NCBI GenBank assembly: GCA_937863385.1
Contig: CALMBW010000021.1
Span: forward strand, 1 to 64,000
DNA length: 64,000 nucleotides
Direction of reading: 5' to 3'
Origin: an uncultured Actinomycetes bacterium
Lineage (GTDB): Bacteria > Actinomycetota > CADDZG01 > WHSQ01
Shown here: piece by piece, positions 1,211 through 14,058 of the stretch
Layout of the letters: each line of letters begins with the position of its first letter
Position numbering within the stretch: the stretch's first letter is position 1
Notes under the pieces: model-generated
Database searches by the model: none
What the model saw: only the letters and a program-made list of their open reading frames with translations
What the model was told of the DNA's origin: nothing
Program-made: the position numbers and the translations under genes

Positions 1211-3301
1211 ATGAGAATTGCCTGGGGAGTCAGTTGGGAAGACTCCAAGAAATCGCGGCTACTGGGGATGATGTTGGCCCCTGTGATGCTGCTGTCGCTG
1301 GCCACGCCGTCACAGAGGGTGGCCATGATGCGCGACCTTTCCGACTCCACGACACGGATGGTTTCCGTGATCGTGCAAGAGGTCGATGGGAACGCGAATG
1401 CCGAGGAACTCGTCGCGAGTCTCGGAGGAGAGGTCGAGCTGCAGCTTGACGTGATCAACGGCTTCTCCGCCGAGATCCCCAAAGCGAACCTGCAGCAGTT
1501 GCGCCAAAGCCCTGAGGTAAGGGCCGTCACGCGCAACTACCCCTTGTACGTCCAGAGCGTGAGCGGCGATCTGATCGGTGACGCGACAGGCACGGCCACC
1601 ACCACGGTCGACACGACTACCGATACGGCCACCACCACGGTCGACACGACTACCGATACGGCCACCACCACGGTCGACACGACTACCGACACGGTTACGG
1701 GCACGGTCGATGCGACCGCCGATTCGAGTGGTCCGACCGTCGCAGTGACGACCGAGCCGAGCCCGACTCCGACGACCGAGCCGAGCCCGACTCCGACGAC
1801 CGAGCCAGCGCCTACGGTTACGGGATCCCTCTACGACCTTGCCAAGACCACCGGTGCACGCGCTCTGTGGCGTGACGGGTACTGCGGGCAGGGTGTTGAC
1901 GTGGCTCTGATAGACACCGGTGTGGTTCCCGTCAATGGGTTGACCTATCCGGGCAAGGTCATCAACGGCCCGGACTTCTCGTTCGAGTCGGGCTTCGAGT
2001 CGGTTCGTTACCTCGACACCAACGGTCATGGCACGCACATGGCCGGGATCATCTCTGGTCGTGACGACGGTGTGACCCGTACTAAGTTGGAGGACCCTGA
2101 GGCGTTCATCGGGATGGCCCCGTGCTCCCGCATAGTGAACATCAAGGTGGCATCCGCCTCGGGCGCAACAGATGTATCCCAGGTCCTGGCGGCGATCGGT
2201 TGGGTCATCCAACACCGCAATGACGCCTCGATGGGCCTCAACATCAAGGTCCTGAACCTGTCGTTCGGTACCGACGGAACGCAGGACTACAAGCTGGACC
2301 CGCTGACCTACGCGGTCGAGCGTGCATGGCAGTCCGGCGTGACGGTGGTTGTCGCGGCTGGTAACCAGCAGTTCGGTAACTCTTCGCTGAACAACCCGGC
2401 CTATGACCCCTACGTGATCGCAGTGGGCGCCAACGACACCAAGGGCACTCACGAGATCGATGACGATGAGATCCCGTCCTGGAGCGCCCGCGGAGACAAC
2501 AAGCGCAACCCGGATCTTGTCGCTCCAGGCAAGTCGGTGATCTCACTGCGCAATCCTGGTTCCTACATCGACGAGAACTATGGCAGCACCGGTCGATTCG
2601 GAGAGCGCTTCTTCAAAGGAAGCGGAACCTCTCAGGCCGCGGCCGCCGTCTCGGGGGCGGCTGCACTGATCTACTCACAGCGTCCGACGATCAAGCCCGA
2701 TGAGGTCAAGGCTCTGTTGATGACAACTGCGAAGCGTCTGAAGAACGCGGACGCTACCGCCCAGGGTTCGGGGATGGTGGATCTGAACAAGGCCGCTAAG
2801 GCCTCTACCCCTCAGTCGGTGCAATCGCACCCGCCTGCAACGGGACTGGGTTCGATCGCCGATTCACGCGGCTCCATGGTTCTCACCCTGCCCGATGGCA
2901 CCGTCCTGAACGGTGAGAGGGATGCCCTCGGTGGCGCCTACGATCCTGCCAGCTACGTCCGGTGGATGGGTGCCGGCTGGAGTGGCGCAGGCTGGTCCGG
3001 TGCCGGTTGGTCCGGACAGTCCTGGTCCGGTGCTGGGTGGTCCGGCGCAGGCTGGTCCGGTGCTGGGTGGTCCGCAGCGGGCTGGTCCGGTGCCGGCTGG
3101 AGTGGCGCAGGCTGGTCCGGCGCCGGTTGGTCCGGTGCAGGCTGGAGTGGCGCAGGCTGGTCCGGTGCCGGCTGGAGTGGCAAGTCCTGGTCCGGCGCCG
3201 GCTGGAGTGGTGCCGGCTGGTCCGGCGCAGGCTGGAGTGGCGCAGGCTGGAGTGGCGCAGGCTGGTCCGGTGCCGGTTGGTCCGGTGCTGGCTGGAGTTG
3301 A
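1211..3301 (+). CDS. Secreted subtilisin-like (S8) protease with AGWSG-repeat tail, copy 1
   Basis: This 696-residue protein starts at ATG 1211, where GGAGGT sits six bases upstream; the frame is open further upstream, but only this start gives an N-terminus matching its neighbour. Order of parts: N-terminal motif (IAWGVSWEDSKKSRLL) leading into a hydrophobic signal segment; an inhibitor-I9-like prodomain (VSVIVQEVDG ... GFSAEIP); a Thr-rich linker of short tandem repeats; the S8 catalytic domain with Asp235 (ALIDTGV), His273 (GHGTHMAGI), Asn in AAGN and Ser474 (GTSQAAA); then about 22 AGWSG-type pentads to the stop. The triad is intact, so an active extracellular protease is expected. The tail probably binds or packs on a surface, which is inference. 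A strong terminator follows. Confidence 0.9.
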   Translation: MRIAWGVSWEDSKKSRLLGMMLAPVMLLSLATPSQRVAMMRDLSDSTTRMVSVIVQEVDGNANAEELVASLGGEVELQLDVINGFSAEIPKANLQQLRQSPEVRAVTRNYPLYVQSVSGDLIGDATGTATTTVDTTTDTATTTVDTTTDTATTTVDTTTDTVTGTVDATADSSGPTVAVTTEPSPTPTTEPSPTPTTEPAPTVTGSLYDLAKTTGARALWRDGYCGQGVDVALIDTGVVPVNGLTYPGKVINGPDFSFESGFESVRYLDTNGHGTHMAGIISGRDDGVTRTKLEDPEAFIGMAPCSRIVNIKVASASGATDVSQVLAAIGWVIQHRNDASMGLNIKVLNLSFGTDGTQDYKLDPLTYAVERAWQSGVTVVVAAGNQQFGNSSLNNPAYDPYVIAVGANDTKGTHEIDDDEIPSWSARGDNKRNPDLVAPGKSVISLRNPGSYIDENYGSTGRFGERFFKGSGTSQAAAAVSGAAALIYSQRPTIKPDEVKALLMTTAKRLKNADATAQGSGMVDLNKAAKASTPQSVQSHPPATGLGSIADSRGSMVLTLPDGTVLNGERDALGGAYDPASYVRWMGAGWSGAGWSGAGWSGQSWSGAGWSGAGWSGAGWSAAGWSGAGWSGAGWSGAGWSGAGWSGAGWSGAGWSGKSWSGAGWSGAGWSGAGWSGAGWSGAGWSGAGWSGAGWS
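1595..1693 (+). repeat. Three in-frame copies of a 33-bp repeat (ATTTVDTTTDT)
   Basis: Three head-to-tail 33-bp units differ by only one base, in the third copy. They encode 11-residue units in the linker between the prodomain and the catalytic domain of S8 protease copy 1. Copy 2 lacks this linker. The near-identity points to recent slippage or recombination. Confidence 0.9.
1751..1798 (+). repeat. Two in-frame copies of a 24-bp repeat (TEPSPTPT)
   Basis: Two identical 24-bp units encode a Pro/Thr/Ser-rich spacer just before the catalytic domain of S8 protease copy 1. Such spacers are usually flexible and may be glycosylated. Confidence 0.85.
2972..3298 (+). repeat. AGWSG pentapeptide array, about 22 units (15-bp period)
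   Basis: The 15-bp units encode AGWSG with rare variants QSWSG, KSWSG and AGWSA. The Ser codon alternates between TCC and AGT, and the Ala and Gly codons vary. The unit is therefore conserved more at protein level than at DNA level, although blocks of near-identical units show local duplication. Confidence 0.95.
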
Positions 3302-3326
3302 TAGAACCGGCAACCACGTGATCCAG

Positions 3327-3354
3327 AACGGGGCCCTGCGGGGCCCCGTTTTTT
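3327..3354 (+). terminator. Intrinsic terminator after S8 protease copy 1
   Basis: A 10-bp perfect stem (AACGGGGCCC / GGGCCCCGTT, loop TGCG at 3337-3340) is followed directly by a T run (TTTTTT including the stem end). It separates the transcripts of the two S8 genes. Confidence 0.95.
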
Positions 3355-3384
3355 CTGCTCAAGTTCACACCCCGAAGTGCCGAA

Positions 3385-3394
3385 CCTACGTAGG
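3385..3394. promoter_or_regulatory. 10-bp perfect palindrome CCTACGTAGG upstream of S8 copy 2
   Basis: The self-complementary decamer sits 38 bp before the start codon, in the only intergenic gap that can hold a promoter for copy 2. It could be an operator for a dimeric regulator. I found no second copy upstream of S8 copy 1. Confidence 0.3.
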
Positions 3395-3432
3395 GGAGCG
3401 TCAACCGTTCGACCGAGGGGAGTAGTTGCAGT

Positions 3433-5355
3433 ATGAGCATCGTGTACGGGGTGACCTGGGACGACCACAAGAAGGGGCGGCTTCTGGCTGGATTCATGTG
3501 CGCCCTCTTGTTATCTACGTTCTTTTCGACCGCAACGCCGCAAGAGATCTCACGCCTGGTTGGAGTCATCGTCCGTGAAGCCCCTGGAGCCGGTGACGCA
3601 CCAGAGCAGGCCGTGCGCGATCTCGGCGGACGTGTGGGCGCGCAGGTCGGCCTGATCCAGGGTTTCACGGCGGAGGTGCCCGCAGACTCGATCGACAACC
3701 TTCGTGCGACGAACGGCGTCATCGACGTCGCTACGAGTCGTCCGATCAAGCTCCTGTCGTCCGAGGATGATTACAGCGAGGCCGACGGGGCGCTGCCCAA
3801 CGTGGCCAAGCAGATCCGGGCCGACAAGATGTGGGAGGACGGCTACACGGGAGCCGGGGTGGACGTCGCACTGATCGACTCCGGACTGGTGCCGGTGGAG
3901 GGACTGCGTACTCCCGGCAAGGTCGTTAACGGACCCGATCTTTCTTTCGAGCAAGGCTCAGACGCGCTGCGTTACATGGACACCTTCGGCCACGGTACGC
4001 ACATCGGCGGGATCATCGCCGGTAAGGACACCGGCGCGGAGGCAGGCGCTGACGGCGATGATGACGGCGATGATGACGGCGACGATAGCGACGAGACCGG
4101 ATTCATGGGGATCGCGCCGGATGCACGCTTGATCAACATCAAGGTTGCCAATGCGATGGGCGCTGCCGACGTGTCGCAAGTCATCGTTGCGCTTGACTGG
4201 ATCGTCGAGCACCGCAACGACAACGGACTGAACATCCGAGTCGTCAATCTTTCCTTCGGCACCGATGGTGTTCAGGACTACCGCGTCGACCCGTTGACCT
4301 ATGCCGTTGAGCAGGCCTGGAAGCACGGGATCGTCGTGGTCGCAGCGGCCGGTAACACCGGCTATGGCACGCAGAAGCTGAACAACCCCGCCTATGACCC
4401 CTACGTGATAGCGGTCGGGGCGACCGACGAGAAGGGAAAGAGCACGCCCGACTGGTCCAGCCGCGGTGACGGGATACGCAACCCCGACATATCGGCCCCC
4501 GGCAAGTCGGTCGTGAGCCTGAGAAGTCCAGGATCACAGATCGATCTCGAACACTCGAGTACCGGCGCCGTCGGCGATCGCTTCTTCAAAGGAAGCGGAA
4601 CGTCTCAGGCTGCCGCGGTGGTGTCGGGTGCAGCCGCGCTGCTACTGTCGCAACGTCCGGAGCTGACCCCGGACCAGGTGAAGGCACTGCTGACTAGTAC
4701 CGCCGACAAGATGAAGAGTGGCGACCCCATAGCGCAAGGCGCAGGTCTGGTTGATCTGAAGGAAGCCTCTCGAGCGCCTACGCCGAACGCCGTGCAAATC
4801 TGGGAGCCCTCAACCGGCCTCGGGTCGCTGGAAGCGGCTCGCGGATCCCTCCACGTGATATCCCCCGAGGGCGTCGTTCTCGAAGGCGAGCAGGACATCT
4901 TCGGTAACCCCTGGGACGGAGCCGGTTGGTCGATCGCCAGCGCTTCCGGAACTGCTTGGTCCGGAGCCGGTTGGTCCGGCGCAGGCTGGAGCGGCGCCGG
5001 TTGGTCCGGCGCAGGCTGGAGCGGCGCCGGTTGGTCCGGCGCAGGCTGGTCGGGCGCAGGCTGGAGTGAATCCGGCTGGGACGCTGCCGGATGGTCGGGT
5101 GTTCCCTGGAACGGCGCCGGTTGGTCCGGAGCCGGTTGGTCGGGCGCCGGATGGAGCGGCGCAGGTTGGAGCGGCGCTGGTTGGTCCGGCGCAGGCTGGT
5201 CCGGCGCAGGCTGGTCGGGCGCGGGCTGGTCGGGCGCGGGCTGGTCGGGCGCAGGCTGGTCGGGCGCGGGCTGGTCGGGAGCCGGTTGGTCCGGAGCCGG
5301 TTGGTCCGGAGCCGGTTGGTCCGGAGCCGGCTGGTCCGGAGCAGGATGGTCGTGA
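3433..5355 (+). CDS. Secreted subtilisin-like (S8) protease with AGWSG-repeat tail, copy 2
   Basis: This 640-residue paralogue of the preceding gene starts at ATG 3433 with GAGGGGAG about ten bases upstream. The N-terminal motif (IVYGVTWDDHKKGRLL) matches copy 1 and leads into a hydrophobic signal segment. An I9-like prodomain (VGVIVREAPG ... GFTAEVP) follows without the Thr-rich linker. The catalytic domain has Asp149 (ALIDSGL), His187 (GHGTHIGGI), AAGN and Ser391 (GTSQAAA). It carries an acidic Asp/Gly insertion (DGDDDGDDDGDD) between the His and the FMGIAPDA segment, at the position where copy 1 has a short Lys/Glu stretch. The acidic loop could bind calcium, which S8 enzymes commonly need. 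The tail has about 26 AGWSG-type pentads with some irregular ones. Confidence 0.9.
   Translation: MSIVYGVTWDDHKKGRLLAGFMCALLLSTFFSTATPQEISRLVGVIVREAPGAGDAPEQAVRDLGGRVGAQVGLIQGFTAEVPADSIDNLRATNGVIDVATSRPIKLLSSEDDYSEADGALPNVAKQIRADKMWEDGYTGAGVDVALIDSGLVPVEGLRTPGKVVNGPDLSFEQGSDALRYMDTFGHGTHIGGIIAGKDTGAEAGADGDDDGDDDGDDSDETGFMGIAPDARLINIKVANAMGAADVSQVIVALDWIVEHRNDNGLNIRVVNLSFGTDGVQDYRVDPLTYAVEQAWKHGIVVVAAAGNTGYGTQKLNNPAYDPYVIAVGATDEKGKSTPDWSSRGDGIRNPDISAPGKSVVSLRSPGSQIDLEHSSTGAVGDRFFKGSGTSQAAAVVSGAAALLLSQRPELTPDQVKALLTSTADKMKSGDPIAQGAGLVDLKEASRAPTPNAVQIWEPSTGLGSLEAARGSLHVISPEGVVLEGEQDIFGNPWDGAGWSIASASGTAWSGAGWSGAGWSGAGWSGAGWSGAGWSGAGWSGAGWSESGWDAAGWSGVPWNGAGWSGAGWSGAGWSGAGWSGAGWSGAGWSGAGWSGAGWSGAGWSGAGWSGAGWSGAGWSGAGWSGAGWSGAGWSGAGWS
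4921..5352 (+). repeat. AGWSG pentapeptide array of S8 copy 2 (regular from 4966)
   Basis: The 15-bp period runs from 4966 to the stop, about 26 units, after a degenerate lead-in from 4921. Irregular units occur near 5065-5115 (ESGWD, VPWNG). The last units are nearly identical at DNA level, which shows recent unit duplication at the 3' end. Copy 2 uses TCC and TCG for Ser where copy 1 often uses AGT, so the two arrays have expanded independently. Confidence 0.95.
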
Positions 5356-5440: not shown

Positions 5441-7441
5441 ATGACCCAGAAGGAAAGCTCCGGGGCGAGAAAGAGCTTCCAGTGGCTCCGGAACAATGGC
5501 ACCGCACGGGTGTGGGGCTTGAACGCCCTTATCGTCGCGTGCGCGGCTCTCGTCGTCGTGGTGCTCGTACCGAGTCGGTCCTCACTCGTCCCGCCCTTCA
5601 CCATCCCGCTTCCCCTGATGGTCGCGGTGGCGTTCCTGGGCGAGAGTTTGGTGGTCCATCTCCAGTTCAAGCGGGACGCCTACTCGTTCTCGCTTTCGGA
5701 GATGACCGTGATCTTCGGGCTCTTCTTCGCCACTCCGGAAACGTTGATCGTCGGCCAGCTGGTGGGATCGGGACTGGCCCTGGTGGTACGCCGGCAGTCG
5801 CTCTTGAAGGTCGTCTTCAACGTTTCCCACTACGTGCTCGAGGCGGCCCTTGCAACGGTGATTTTCAACGCTATCGCGGACAGTGGAACGGGGATCGGGG
5901 CACGGTCCTGGCTCGGCGCATTCCTCGCCGCGTTCAGCGCGATGTTCGTCAGCATCTGGATGGTCGCCTTCGCCATCTCTTTGTCCGAAGGACGCCTGCG
6001 CCTCGACACGGTGCCGACAAGTTTCATGTACGGCGGTGCCGTGATGGCAACGAACATCAGTCTTGCCCTGATCGGGGTGGAGACCTTGTGGTTGAAGCCG
6101 GAGGCGGCCTGGCTCCTCGTCGTTCCGGTACTGCTGCTGTTCATGTCCTACCGCGCCTACCTGAGTCAGCGTGAGAAGAGGGAAACCGTCGAGCTCCTGT
6201 ACGAGTCCTCCCGATCTGTGCAGCACTCCCGGTCGGGAGAGCAAGCGATCATCACTCTGTTGACGCAGGCACGCGAGATGTTCCGGGCCGAGACGGCTCA
6301 ACTGACGATCTTTTCCGAGGACGAAGAATGCATCGCGTACCGGACGACTCTAGGACCGGGGGAGATCGCAGATGTGATGCAGCGGGTGGAGCTCAATCCC
6401 CGTGAGGGTGTGTGGGCGCGCGTTGCGTCCGAAGATAAAGCCATCTTGATCCCGCGACCGATCGAGAACGAGCGTTTGCGTCTGCATTTCGCAGCCCGCC
6501 ACATCTTCAAGGACGCCATGGTGGCTCCCCTCTCCGGCGGAGACGGAGTTATAGGGACGCTGTTGGTGGGAGATCGTCTCGGCGAGGTCAGCACGTTCGA
6601 CCAAGAGGACCTCAAGATGTTCGAAACCCTCGCTAACCATGCATCGGTTTCACTGGAGAACGCTCGCCTGGTTGACCGGTTGAAGGAGTCTCTTGCTCAC
6701 CTAACCGAGATGAACCGATTGAAGGACGATTTCGTCGCTGCCGTTTCGCACGAGCTGCGGACACCATTGACGTCGATCCAGGGCTACGTGAAAACCTTGT
6801 TGCGGCCCGAGATGCGCGACTATGACCCCGACGCTCAGGTGTCATTCCTTGAGGCGGTCGATCGTCAGAGTGAACGGTTGCGCAGCCTGATCGAGGATCT
6901 TCTGGTCGTGGCCCGGCTCGACGCTCATGAAGTAAGTCCTACCTGGATGCCTGTGAACGTCGAACGCGTAGCAGATCGTGTGCTCGTCGAGTTGCGAGAC
7001 CGCGCATCCGAACACGAGCTATCGATGGAGGTTCCTGCAGATATCCCGACCGTTGAGAGTGACGAGGGCAAGATCCAGCAGATCGTCACCAACCTCGTGG
7101 ACAACGCCTGCAAGTACTCCCCGAGCGGCACCAAGGTCCGGATCACGGGTCAGGTCGAAGGTGATGGCGTCACCATCTCGGTAGTGGACCAGGGAAACGG
7201 CATCCCGTTGGACCAACACGAGCGGATCTTCGATCGCTTCTATCAGGTGGATCAATCCTCGACCCGCAAGGTCGGTGGGACCGGGTTGGGTCTCTACCTG
7301 TGCCGTCGCTTGGCCGAGGCTCTGGGGGGCCGGGTCTGGCTCGAACGCTCGGATGAGAGCGGGTCGACGTTCAGTCTGTGGGTTCCCAGCCAGCCTCCGG
7401 TGGCACCACCGATACGTACCAGTCACTCGGCTCCCGCCTGA
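5441..7441 (+). CDS. Membrane-bound GAF-domain sensor histidine kinase (orphan)
   Basis: In this 666-residue protein, residues 25-240 hold about seven to eight hydrophobic segments that form a membrane sensor domain. A GAF-like domain follows (about 260-410, ending ETLANHASVSLENARLVDRL), with a short coiled-coil linker. The HisKA domain has phospho-acceptor His437 in AVSHELRTPL. The ATPase domain shows the N box (NLVDNACKYSP, Asn555), G1 (DQGNGIP), F box (FDRFYQVD) and G2 (GGTGLGLYLC). All catalytic motifs are present. No response regulator lies next to it, so its partner is elsewhere. It is read in the same direction as the S8 proteases and may sense the cell surface, but only position suggests that. 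Confidence 0.9.
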   Translation: MTQKESSGARKSFQWLRNNGTARVWGLNALIVACAALVVVVLVPSRSSLVPPFTIPLPLMVAVAFLGESLVVHLQFKRDAYSFSLSEMTVIFGLFFATPETLIVGQLVGSGLALVVRRQSLLKVVFNVSHYVLEAALATVIFNAIADSGTGIGARSWLGAFLAAFSAMFVSIWMVAFAISLSEGRLRLDTVPTSFMYGGAVMATNISLALIGVETLWLKPEAAWLLVVPVLLLFMSYRAYLSQREKRETVELLYESSRSVQHSRSGEQAIITLLTQAREMFRAETAQLTIFSEDEECIAYRTTLGPGEIADVMQRVELNPREGVWARVASEDKAILIPRPIENERLRLHFAARHIFKDAMVAPLSGGDGVIGTLLVGDRLGEVSTFDQEDLKMFETLANHASVSLENARLVDRLKESLAHLTEMNRLKDDFVAAVSHELRTPLTSIQGYVKTLLRPEMRDYDPDAQVSFLEAVDRQSERLRSLIEDLLVVARLDAHEVSPTWMPVNVERVADRVLVELRDRASEHELSMEVPADIPTVESDEGKIQQIVTNLVDNACKYSPSGTKVRITGQVEGDGVTISVVDQGNGIPLDQHERIFDRFYQVDQSSTRKVGGTGLGLYLCRRLAEALGGRVWLERSDESGSTFSLWVPSQPPVAPPIRTSHSAPA

Positions 7442-7632: not shown

Positions 7633-9461
<1,829 letters not shown>

Positions 9462-9462
<1 letters not shown>

Positions 9463-10028
9463 TGGCCGAGCGAGAACCGGGCCGGGTAGCGCAAGAGGTT
9501 GCCGGGTCCACTCCCGGCGTCGAGGCGCGGGGGGGCGACGGACAAGACCTGCTCGAGGAAACGTCGGAGGTCGAACAGACCCCAGCAGGCGAAGCCGTCG
9601 CCGAGCCGGACTACCGCGATCTCTACCTTCGTGAACGAGCAGAGGGAGAGAACCTCCGGAAGAGGATGTTCAAGCAGCAACAGGAGTCGGTTGCCTACGC
9701 CACCAAAGATCTCGCCAAGCGACTCGTGCCGGTGATCGACCACTTCAATCTGGCCATCGAGCACGGTGAGGGTGGTAGCGGCATAGAACTAGCCCTCAAG
9801 GAGCTCCTGACGGCGCTTGGACACGAGGGTCTCGAAGAGATCGCGGTGGAGAAAGGGGAACCGTTCGACCCCAACGTCCACCATGCCTTGACGACCGTGA
9901 CCGATGCCTCGGTTTCCACCGATGTGGTTGCCGAGGTTCATCGGAAGGGTTATCGATTCAAGGACCACGTACTGCGTGCTCCTGAGGTGGTTGTCGCTCA
10001 ACCCGTGCAAGACGTAGACAGAGACTGA
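9462..10028 (+). CDS. grpE: Nucleotide exchange factor GrpE
   Basis: GrpE releases ADP from DnaK and may act as a thermosensor. The 188-residue protein has an acidic, poorly ordered N-terminus (1-50), a long helix (DLYLRERAEGENLRKRMFKQ) and the C-terminal beta domain with PFDPNVHHALTTV and GYRFKDHVLRAPEVVVAQ, both hallmarks of the family. ATG 9462 overlaps the dnaK stop (TGATG), so the two are translationally coupled. The J-protein gene starts ten bases after its stop. Confidence 0.95.
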
Positions 10029-10038
10029 GGACGGACCG

Positions 10039-10971
10039 ATGGCACAGCGCGATTGGATGGACAAGGACTACTACAAGGTGCTGGGCCTGAGCCAAGACGC
10101 GACCAAGGAGGAAGTCAAGAAGGCGTACCGGAAACTCGCGCAGAAGTATCACCCGGACGCGAACACCGGTGATGCCGGGGCCGAGGCTCGCTTCAAGGAG
10201 GTGTCGGAGGCACACGCGGTTCTCAGCAACGACAAGAAGCGTGCCGAGTACGACGAGATGCGCCGTTTCGTACAGGCCGGGGGCGAGCGCGTGTATGGCT
10301 TCGGCTCGGGTCGTGGCGGTGGCGTACGGGTCGACATCGGTGACCTGTTCGGCGCGGGGCGCGGTGGCCAGGAGGTAGATATCGGTGACCTGCTGGGAGG
10401 CTTCGGTTTCGGCGGTCCCCGCCGGGGCCAAGATGTTGAGACCGAGACGCACCTGAGTTTCGAGGATGCCGTAAACGGCACTACCGTTGTCTTGCGCGAC
10501 GGTACCAAGGTCCGTATCCCACCAGGCGTCGGTAGCGGCTCGCGCATCAAGGTTCCGGGTAAGGGCAACCCGGGCGGCTCCGGCGGGCCCAATGGCGACC
10601 TTTACGTGCGGGTCTCGGTCGGCGAACACCCGGTGTTCAAGCTCGGTCGCGATGGCGAGCTTTCCCTTGATCTACCCGTGACGTATCCCGAGGCGGTTCT
10701 CGGCGCCAAGGTCGATGTCCCGACCCTCGATGGTCCCGTCACGGTGAAGGTGCCGGCGGGCACGCCCAATGGCAAACGTCTACGAGTCAAGGGCAAGGGG
10801 GCTCCCAAGCGAGGCGGTGGACGGGGAGACTTGTTGGTCCGCATCGAGATCGCCGTGCCTCAGAAGGTGTCGCGCAAGAGCAAGCAGCTGCTCGAGGAGC
10901 TGGCCGACGAGCAAGACGAGTCGCCTCGCTCGCATCTCGAGAGCTACATGGATCGTCCGAAAGCGTCCTAG
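10039..10971 (+). CDS. J-domain co-chaperone without zinc finger (CbpA-like, type II)
   Basis: The 310-residue protein delivers substrates to DnaK and stimulates its ATPase. The J domain (about 10-75) carries HPD at 38-40. A Gly-rich segment follows (YGFGSGRGGG, DIGDLFGAG, LLGGFGFGG), then two beta-sandwich client-binding domains starting at about residue 130 (DVETETHLSFEDAVNGT). The CxxCxGxG zinc-finger region of classical DnaJ is absent, and the protein is 60-90 residues shorter than classical DnaJ. By domain order it is a CbpA/DnaJB-type protein. In mycobacteria the J-protein of the dnaK operon has the zinc finger, so this operon differs. Another, full-length DnaJ is probably encoded elsewhere. 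Confidence 0.93.
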   Translation: MAQRDWMDKDYYKVLGLSQDATKEEVKKAYRKLAQKYHPDANTGDAGAEARFKEVSEAHAVLSNDKKRAEYDEMRRFVQAGGERVYGFGSGRGGGVRVDIGDLFGAGRGGQEVDIGDLLGGFGFGGPRRGQDVETETHLSFEDAVNGTTVVLRDGTKVRIPPGVGSGSRIKVPGKGNPGGSGGPNGDLYVRVSVGEHPVFKLGRDGELSLDLPVTYPEAVLGAKVDVPTLDGPVTVKVPAGTPNGKRLRVKGKGAPKRGGGRGDLLVRIEIAVPQKVSRKSKQLLEELADEQDESPRSHLESYMDRPKAS

Positions 10972-10990
10972 TGCTGTAAGGGGGCAACGA

Positions 10991-11455
10991 GTGAGCGAAG
11001 CGTTTGATCCAGAGAGACCGATCTATGTGATCTCGATCGCTGCCGAGCTGGCGGGGGTGCACCCGCAAACGTTGCGCGTGTACGAGCGCAAGGGATTGGT
11101 GGCGCCGAAGAGAACGTCCGGCAATAGCAGGCGCTACTCGGAACGCGACATCCAGTTGTTGCGCCGCATCCAGGAACTGACGAATGAGGGGATCAACCTT
11201 GCAGGCGTGATGAGGATCCTCGAGCTCGAGCAGCGACTGGGCCGGTTGCGGTCACGTTTCGATCGCGCGGCAGATCAGATCGGGATCCTAGAGGACCAGA
11301 TGCAGCAACTCCTTCAGGCGCGCAGCTCTGCATCCTTGGTTCCACTGCGGGATGTCAAGCGTGTGCGAAGGGCTATGAAAACAGACGCGATCGAAGAGAT
11401 GTCTCGCCGCCGGACGTTCACCATGCCGGGCGCAGGGAACGACGGGCAGCAGTAA
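10991..11455 (+). CDS. hspR: Heat-shock repressor HspR (MerR family)
   Basis: HspR represses dnaK operons by binding HAIR inverted repeats, using DnaK as co-repressor in Streptomyces. The 154-residue protein starts at GTG 10991 with GGGG upstream; the longer open frame reaches into dnaJ and is not used. The MerR-type helix-turn-helix is clear ([20 protein letters not shown], then [17 protein letters not shown] and [13 protein letters not shown]). A coiled coil follows ([20 protein letters not shown]). There is no N-terminal metal-binding Cys set. Its position between dnaJ and clpB, with the HAIR-like site before dnaK, supports the assignment. Confidence 0.95.
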
Positions 11456-11481
11456 GGAACGAAAGAGACAGAGGTAACGCG

Positions 11482-14058
11482 ATGGACATGAACAAACTGA
11501 CGGTGAGGTCGCAAGAGGCCTTGATGGCAGCCCAACGGATCGCTGCCGACCATAACCAACAGCAGATCGAGAACGTGCACCTATTGCGGGCTCTTGTCGG
11601 ACAGCCTGAGGGCATCGTCCTGCCTTTGCTTCAAAGGATGGGGGTCACCCCAGCGAGCCTGCGTCCGTCATTGGACTCGGCCATCGAGCGCTTGCCAAAG
11701 GTCTATTCGGGTTCAGACGTTTACCTGTCGGCGTCGATGCGCGATGTCCTCGACCTAGCCGCAGCGCGCGCCGCATCCATGGGGGACGCTTACGTGTCCA
11801 CCGAGCATCTGTTGCTGGCCCTGATCGAGACCGACTCGCCGGCCGCGAGTCTTCTAGCCGAAGCGGGTGTCACGTCCGAGGGTGTCGCCGCAGCCTTGAA
11901 AGAGATCAGGGGTGACCGCAAGGTCACCGATCAGAACCCTGAGGATAAGTACCAGGCGCTCGAACGCTTCGGCCGGGACCTCACTACCGCAGCCCGGGCC
12001 GGAAAGCTCGATCCCGTGATCGGCCGAGATGAAGAGATCCGAAGAGTGATCCAGGTGCTTTCGCGGCGCACGAAGAACAACCCCGTGCTGATAGGGGAGC
12101 CGGGCGTCGGCAAGACTGCGATCGTCGAGGGGCTCGCCAATCGGATCGTTGCAGGTGACGTTCCCGAGTCGCTTCAAGGTAAGCGGCTGGTCGCTTTGGA
12201 CCTCGGGTCCATGATCGCCGGCAGCAAGTATCGAGGCGAGTTCGAGGAGCGACTGAAAGCCGTCCTTGACGAGATCGTGGCTTCGGATGGCCAGGTGATC
12301 ACCTTCATCGACGAGATGCACACGATCGTGGGGGCCGGCGCCGCCGAAGGATCGATGGATGCCGGGAACATGATCAAGCCGATGCTCGCCCGAGGCGAGT
12401 TGCGGATGGTCGGTGCCACGACTCTTGACGAGTACCGCAAACACATCGAGAAGGATGCCGCGCTGGAACGGCGGTTCCAGCCGGTCCTGGTGGGCGAACC
12501 ATCGGTTGTCGACGCGATAGCGATCCTGCGCGGGCTCAAGGAACGTTACGAGGTTCACCACGGTGTGCGTATCCAGGACGCCGCGCTTGTCGCCGCGGCC
12601 GTTCTCTCCGACCGGTACGTCACCTCACGGTTCTTGCCGGATAAGGCGATCGATCTCGTCGACGAAGCTGCATCCCGTCTCCGGATCGAGATCGATTCGA
12701 TGCCGACCGAGATAGATGTCCTTGACAGGCGTGCGAAGCAGCTCGAGATCGAGAAAGCGGCTCTCTCCAAGGAGACCGACGAAGCCTCTAAGCAGCGACT
12801 CGAGAAGATCGAGGAGGAGCTGGCCGGACTTCACGAAGACATGGATTCGATGAAGGCTCATTGGGGCAAGGAGAAGGAGATCATCGATCGCATCCGCACT
12901 CTGAAAGCAGAGATGGAGATCGCCAAGGGAGAAGCGGAGCGTGCGGAGAGAGACGGGGACCTCGCGCGAGCGGCCGAACTCCGATACGGGCGCTTGATCG
13001 AGCTCGACAAGGAGATAGACGAAGCCAACTCTCGATTGACCGAGCTGCAGGCCGACCGGCGCTTCCTCAAAGAAGAGGTCGATGAAGAAGACATCGCTAG
13101 GGTCGTGGCGCGGTGGACGAATATCCCTGTGACTAGGTTGCTCGAAGGCGAGGTCGCCAAGCTCGTCAAGATGGAAGACGGTCTCCACGAACGGGTCATC
13201 GGTCAGGACGAAGCGGTATCCGCGGTGTCCAATGCGATCCGCAGGTCGCGCTCGGGGTTGTCCGATCCAAATCGACCGATCGGTTCATTCATATTCCTCG
13301 GTCCGACCGGTGTCGGAAAGACCGAACTCGCCCGAGCCCTCGCTGGGTTCCTCTTTGACGACGAACGGGCCATGGTGCGCATAGACATGAGCGAGTACAT
13401 GGAGAAACATGCGGTGTCGCGCCTGATCGGTGCCCCGCCCGGCTACGTGGGTTATGACGAGGGCGGCCAGTTGACCGAGGCCGTGCGCCGGCGCCCGTAC
13501 TCGGTGCTGTTGTTGGACGAGATCGAGAAGGCGCATCCAGACGTGTTCAACGTGCTGCTCCAACTATTGGATGACGGCAGGCTCACCGACGGACAAGGTC
13601 GCACCGTGGACTTCCGCAACACCGTCGTGATCATGACCTCTAACCTCGGCAGCCAGTGGTTGCTATCGGCAGGGGAGTCCGACAGTGCCGAGGCCAAAGT
13701 GCTCGAGGTGGTCCGGGAGCATTTCAAACCGGAATTCCTCAATCGAGTCGATGAGATCCTCGTCTTCCATCGACTCGGCAGCGAGCACCTGAACCGGATC
13801 GTCGACATACAGCTCGGCCACCTGCGAGAGAGACTCCGGCAGAGAGGCATCGAGATCGAGGTCGATGAACTCGCCAAGGACTATCTGGTTCGGGAAGGCT
13901 ATGAGCCCGCCTACGGAGCCCGGCCGCTGAAGCGCTTGATACAGCGAGAGCTCGAAAACCCGCTAGCCCTGCGTCTGCTCGACGGCACCTTTGCCGAAGG
14001 CTCGAAGATCGTGGTGTCTGCTGGGTCAGAAGGCCTCACTTTCGAAGACAAGGCATAG
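11482..14058 (+). CDS. clpB: Disaggregase ClpB
   Basis: ClpB is a hexameric AAA+ machine that pulls proteins out of aggregates together with DnaK. The 858-residue protein has an N domain with two Clp-N repeats (1-145), AAA-1 with Walker [10 protein letters not shown] and Walker B TFIDEMH, a long coiled-coil middle domain (about 400-530, Glu/Lys/Arg-rich), AAA-2 with Walker [10 protein letters not shown] and Walker [14 protein letters not shown], and the C-terminal D2-small domain. Pore loop 1 is [10 protein letters not shown]. Length and order are those of full-length ClpB. It starts 26 bases after hspR, so it is most likely co-transcribed with and repressed by HspR. Confidence 0.98.

Follow-up and report, generated by a model that had tools for sequence, protein, structure and literature searches.

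Trp-tailed subtilases and an adjacent S-component-like membrane sensor form a candidate two-part signalling cassette

Subtilases that end in a long tail with a Trp at every fifth residue raise the question of what such a tail does and whether its carriers act as stand-alone enzymes. The window analyzed here, a stretch of 64,000 nucleotides from an uncultured Actinomycetes bacterium (GCA_937863385.1, contig CALMBW010000021.1, positions 1 to 64,000), encodes two such enzymes in tandem, S8-1 and S8-2, with the following features.

1211..3301, plus strand: S8-1, Trp-tailed subtilase of 696 aa, with signal segment, I9-type propeptide, Thr/Pro linker, catalytic domain and 22-pentad tail
1217..1264, plus strand: N-terminal motif IAWGVSWEDSKKSRLL of S8-1, ahead of the hydrophobic segment
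1592..1806, plus strand: low-complexity linker of S8-1 from propeptide to catalytic domain, Thr/Asp then Pro/Glu, with 33-bp and 24-bp tandem repeats; absent from S8-2
1886..2773, plus strand: catalytic domain of S8-1 (Peptidase_S8, residues 226-521; Pfam)
2969..3298, plus strand: Trp-pentad tail of S8-1, 22 uninterrupted pentads, ending ...AGWS-COOH
3327..3350, plus strand: hairpin followed by a T run, a likely intrinsic terminator at the S8-1/S8-2 boundary (z -4.28; not in the consensus scan)
3433..5355, plus strand: S8-2, Trp-tailed subtilase of 640 aa
3439..3486, plus strand: N-terminal motif IVYGVTWDDHKKGRLL of S8-2
3556..3735, plus strand: propeptide-like domain of S8-2 (residues 42-101), confident in the AlphaFold2 model
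3853..4746, plus strand: catalytic domain of S8-2 (residues 141-438; D149, H187, N308, S391; Pfam, family alignments, AlphaFold2)
4816..4950, plus strand: conserved linker of S8-2, TGLGSLEAARGS... (residues 462-506; confidently modelled, family alignments)
4957..5352, plus strand: Trp-pentad tail of S8-2, 26 uninterrupted pentads (AlphaFold2 pLDDT ~30)

Both reading frames are open and uninterrupted, and both products match Peptidase_S8 (PF00082; gathering score 21.8) strongly (S8-1, E 2.5e-42, 145.6 bits; S8-2, E 1.7e-42, 146.1 bits). The catalytic Asp, His and Ser and the oxyanion Asn are invariant in family alignments. By score and catalytic residues, the sequences confirm both proteins as S8 subtilases, in agreement with the initial annotation, which had described two intact enzymes. 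The I9 propeptide is matched in S8-1 by Pfam, and the AlphaFold2 model of S8-2 is that of a propeptide-subtilisin, confident through the linker up to about residue 510, with Thermococcus Tk-SP (3AFG and 9UES) and subtilisins as the nearest solved structures. Catalytic domain, triad and propeptide-like domain are thus those of other subtilases (MEROPS S8/PF00082, I9 propeptide), from which the present proteins differ in the C-terminal Trp-periodic tail and in a fixed pairing with a membrane sensor (see below). The two catalytic domains differ from each other by 42%. That of S8-2 contains an Asp-rich insertion encoded by a 12-bp tandem repeat (DGDDDGDDDGDD; positions 4050-4086), perhaps a metal-binding loop.

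The best NCBIfam match of the catalytic domains is the type VII secretion (T7SS) mycosin (TIGR03921; 152.8 and 166.9 bits). Identity with it was rejected because the scores are far under the cut-off of 278.75 and no ESX/T7SS locus accompanies the genes, the sensor being the only conserved neighbour. T7SS mycosins carry a C-terminal anchor, which is replaced here by the Trp tail. The genome holds a third relative (locus L008, 4771-6747, minus strand), which has another type of Trp tail (ASTWK), lacks the N-terminal motif and is directly followed by a membrane histidine kinase gene. S8 genes without the tail also exist in this genome, and the one inspected (L007) has no adjacent sensor.

The N-terminal motif had been noted as shared by the two proteins, and IAWGVSWEDSKKSRLL and IVYGVTWDDHKKGRLL indeed fit its stated form letter for letter. 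A degenerate pattern of it has two matches in the genome, the starts of S8-1 and S8-2, and reversed-pattern controls have none there; across the 16 genomes of the family tested, the motif is confined to these S8 proteins. Of 107 pentad-tailed S8 proteins, 16, spread over several lineages, have a G-[VI]-[ST]-W-type motif ahead of the hydrophobic segment; of 27 hexad-tailed ones, none does. Constant co-occurrence of motif and tail was therefore not found, and the tail does not require the motif. A dedicated export or anchoring route through the motif, as had been suggested, thus cannot apply to tailed S8 proteins in general. Judged from its sequence, the motif resembles a specialized n-region within the signal segment. 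Its closest analogue is presumably the YSIRK-type signal peptide.

The tails themselves were described accurately: the uninterrupted W-x4 runs comprise 22 and 26 pentads, among which 18 and 22 are exact AGWSG units. Among the pentads within an array, pN/pS is 0.29 for S8-1 and 0.22 for S8-2 (pS ~0.58), and a set of 83 arrays has a median of 0.58, four of them exceeding 1. Within-array differences are thus mostly synonymous, indicating that the tails are kept by protein-level selection and not by mere slippage. In pentad tails generally, the Trp-Trp spacing is 5 in 1628 of 1820 cases and a multiple of 5 in 1719, 80% of W+2 positions hold Gly or Ala, the remaining positions drift, and length varies from 8 to 40 Trp with the register kept. 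The chain ends exactly one residue past the last Trp in 67 of 105 complete proteins (zero to two residues past it in 77), which makes the last tail unit equal to the inner ones.

No match to the tail was found in Pfam or NCBIfam, and a profile of diverse tails found no PDB chain; its proposed status as a distinct repeat module, without a solved relative, stands. Fold prediction for the S8-2 tail (residues 511-640) gave no confident strands or fold (AlphaFold2 pLDDT ~30). A match of this tail to DotG/IcmE was set aside as a compositional likeness of AG[FW]S, given that the diverse-tail profile matches no PDB chain. Pentapeptide-repeat proteins likewise repeat every five residues and place a large hydrophobic side chain at one of them, but they have Leu or Phe where the tail has Trp, which is followed at W+2 by a small residue. 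The tail has no Pfam match to these families, and the model shows no confident quadrilateral beta-solenoid, so that a pentapeptide-repeat solenoid was judged unlikely.

To avoid circularity, the distribution of the tail was surveyed with a tail-only profile holding no S8 information, which replaced a noisy DNA pattern (Trp every 15 bases, with many other-frame matches). Run on 397 genomes of the phylum, this profile detected the tail in 30, with 48 separate tails counted: S8 ORFs carry 46, a contig end truncates another, and the last is a short ORF standing by itself. In a protein search, 21 of 101 related genomes had relatives, and all those whose C-terminus is complete and whose frame was called cleanly are Trp-tailed, with a sensor ORF nearly always next. 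A named-genome search placed relatives in Geodermatophilus, Blastococcus, Virgisporangium, Dactylosporangium, Actinoplanes, Frankiaceae, Acidimicrobiia, Thermoleophilia, Chloroflexota and Acidobacteriota; Trp tails on S8 enzymes of environmental actinobacteria, mentioned in the initial annotation, are thereby supported. In Acidobacteria (L227-L257, e.g., L242, 5815-8372), the S8 relatives have a Trp at every sixth residue (SVVWGT, SNALWG).

A membrane sensor gene, unremarked in the initial annotation, is the conserved neighbour of the tailed S8 genes. The interval first delimited, 1211-5355, correctly takes in both proteases but leaves out a histidine kinase gene of the same unit, whose features are as follows.

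5441..7441, plus strand: membrane sensor histidine kinase of 666 aa, starting 86 bp after S8-2
5441..6205, plus strand: sensor membrane domain (residues 1-255), S-component-like predicted fold, MASE9-related
6257..6658, plus strand: GAF domain
6722..7393, plus strand: HisKA and HATPase_c domains, with H-box SHELRT, N-box and G-box intact

The HisKA and HATPase_c domains and the H-box identify the product, by sequence, as a sensor histidine kinase. Because the hairpin at 3327..3350 parts S8-1 from S8-2, the kinase gene may be co-transcribed with S8-2; a scan for sigma-70 promoters and terminators gave chance-level counts only. Directly after the sensor, genes in the order dnaK-grpE-dnaJ-hspR(MerR)-clpB occupy 7633-14058 of the window; a link to this operon was rejected, since the arrangement is not conserved in relatives. 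The dnaK-hspR-clpB order and the named relatives suggest that the host is probably an actinobacterium. Upstream of S8-1, a small predicted lipoprotein with an LTAAC lipobox is encoded at 310-759 and was not found near relatives.

Pairing was defined as a membrane-domain gene adjacent to the tailed S8 gene (<700 bp) or one S8 gene away. Among 107 pentad-tailed S8 genes, 82 are adjacent to a membrane-domain gene, five lie in tandem S8 arrays, eight are at contig edges and 12 have no such neighbour; the first two groups make up 87 paired genes among the 99 evaluable ones, and in 75 the sensor gene is downstream on the same strand. As a rough estimate based on a few sensors per ~3000-gene genome, chance adjacency would be below 1 percent. 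No other conserved neighbour was found, the next cluster occurring in five of 102 loci. At several loci (L211, L213, L212, L216), the sensor gene is upstream or divergent, and divergent orientation is also seen at some Acidobacteria loci. At L141 (220-4427), where the tailed S8 gene abuts a contig end, a membrane-domain histidine kinase gene lies beyond the start of the S8 gene and on the other strand.

The part common to the partners is their first 240-255 residues, in which a Glu and an Asn are nearly invariant. The model of the window's membrane domain is confident (pLDDT 91.5), and its top meaningful PDB matches by Foldseek are the ECF-transporter S-components RibU, ThiT, FolT and BioY. 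The match probability reaches 1.00 and the target TM score is 0.63-0.71 for RibU, with weak E-values (0.05-0.8) and a predicted model as the query. The partner membrane domain is accordingly predicted, from this model, to have the ECF S-component fold. That fold serves sensor kinases (5TMR) as well as ECF S-components (Partipilo and Slotboom, 2024; PMC11109136); that paper makes no mention of protease, peptidase or MASE. The present partners share with such receptors the predicted fold and the fusion to a kinase or c-di-GMP enzymes, but belong to a different sequence family, which is MASE9-related, and are paired with a protease gene.

Relationship to MASE9 (PF20972; gathering score 24.3) is weakly indicated by sequence. 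The window's own membrane domain has no Pfam match, MASE9 included, whereas a MASE9 match at E<0.1 was obtained for six of 36 relatives. Among the partner domains scanned, those of L060, L235 and L243 are above the cut-off and most relatives are below it. Literature searches on the tail, the pair and MASE9 found neither a paper describing the tailed protease-sensor pair nor a description of a ligand for MASE9-like S-component-fold receptors.

The cytoplasmic outputs vary. Among the 82 partners adjacent to a pentad-tailed S8 gene, 49 are GGDEF-EAL proteins and 26 are histidine kinases; HD-GYP, hybrid kinase and GGDEF outputs occur elsewhere. Output motifs are intact in nearly all proteins (GGDEF in 47 of 55, EAL in 46 of 49, SHELRT in 25 of 27), which argues for signalling from outside to inside. 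Acidobacterial partners can consist of just the membrane domain (226-245 aa, no output), and several hexad-tailed S8 genes there are followed by such a stand-alone MASE9-like protein of ~240 aa. As the membrane domain is all that the partner comprises in these relatives, it is the element of the pair that stays constant.

Protease and membrane domain are co-inherited: catalytic-domain and membrane-domain distances correlate with a rho of 0.57, which none of 499 permutations reached. Tail composition also follows the membrane domain beyond what the catalytic domain accounts for (partial 0.20; 0 of 499 permutations reached); this co-variation of tail and receptor may reflect shared ancestry. Similar sensor domains occur without a protease as well (e.g., in G000:C18 and G002), suggesting that the receptor does not need the protease. 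One of these, an orphan GGDEF-EAL protein (L166, 4826-7423; G000:C18), has a membrane domain close to that of the window's sensor and no S8 neighbour.

As tailed S8 genes adjoin one type of membrane sensor, S8-1 and S8-2 look like the outer half of a signalling pair rather than stand-alone enzymes, and the conserved MASE9-like partner is the strongest clue to their function. The locus is, on balance and at slightly better than even confidence, read as an instance of a widespread cassette for membrane signalling with two parts, an exported tailed subtilase and an S-component-like receptor. The first part would be an exported subtilase with a low-complexity tail bearing Trp at a fixed period, 5 here and 6 in Acidobacteria. 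The second would be a polytopic membrane protein with a constant S-component-like (MASE9-related) domain and an interchangeable cytoplasmic output (histidine kinase, GGDEF-EAL, GGDEF, HD-GYP or none). The protease would be exported, mature by folding with its propeptide, and most likely remain at the outer membrane face or the wall. The receptor would then contact and read the aromatic tail, or something released from it, with the tail as the receptor-facing part, and pass the signal from the outside to the cytoplasmic enzyme. Several observations count against such a cassette: a sensor is absent nearby in 12 of the 99 evaluable cases, the membrane-only partner of Acidobacteria would transmit nothing by itself, and free-standing Trp-pentad ORFs have no signal peptide.

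These short ORFs (an MTTTT start followed by WAGIN or WAGVN repeats) occur in two genomes of one genus, at L140 (6002-6235, minus strand) and at L261 (from ~6430, plus strand), where the array runs into the contig end. Both are divergent from an S-component-type GGDEF-EAL receptor gene, with no protease. If they are real genes, the tail and not the protease would be the minimal partner of the receptor.

Tails might instead anchor the protease to wall, membrane or matrix, or mediate self-assembly, with the adjacent sensor only regulating protease expression or activity. The regular aromatics, small polar (Gly/Ser) spacers and lack of a predicted fold would fit a sticker-and-spacer segment; free length with a kept register would suit such a role, and regulator-target gene pairs are common. 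However, anchoring leaves unexplained why one constant membrane domain carries kinase, cyclase or no output, and such an anchor would be expected on other secreted enzymes too, yet nearly all detected tails are on one protease family. This explanation is therefore considered unlikely.

About as unlikely is a reading of the tail as a series of tandem peptide signals, a new type of system in which a protease carries 8-40 Trp pentapeptides of its own as its tail, the protease itself or another one cuts them off, and the pentapeptides bind the adjacent receptor in an autocrine manner and so control its kinase or c-di-GMP output. Tail and receptor would then form the constant pair, as in the two genomes with a free-standing Trp-pentad ORF. 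Tandem units near-identical within one protein and different between loci would fit, as would chain ends close to the last Trp and the binding of small ligands by S-component folds in ECF transporters. The window's tandem proteases also share one sensor and one pentad type in spite of their divergent catalytic domains (JS 0.06 between their tails vs. a median of 0.49 at the same catalytic-domain distance). Against this, the units vary within many tails, which conserve Trp and register only (L008, L041), the first pentads show a position-specific consensus (WxGGxWNG), another tandem pair (L132) has tails unlike each other, and the free-standing ORFs have no signal peptide.

Inside-out control, with the membrane protein responding to a second messenger in the cytoplasm by sequestering the protease or letting it go, is very improbable: a membrane GGDEF-EAL gene beside one for an extracytoplasmic protease does resemble LapD-LapG, but LapD has degenerate GGDEF and EAL domains whereas those of nearly all partners are intact, so that identity as LapD-type receptors was rejected; the protease here is a serine subtilase, and about one-third of the pentad-tail partners are active-looking histidine kinases.

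The preferred reading, a cassette of tailed subtilase and S-component-like receptor, would extend to at least three phyla (Actinomycetota, Chloroflexota and Acidobacteriota). It points to an unstudied link from extracellular proteolysis, or from a tail of repeated aromatics, into kinase and c-di-GMP signalling, and offers a candidate partner for MASE9-like S-component-fold receptors.
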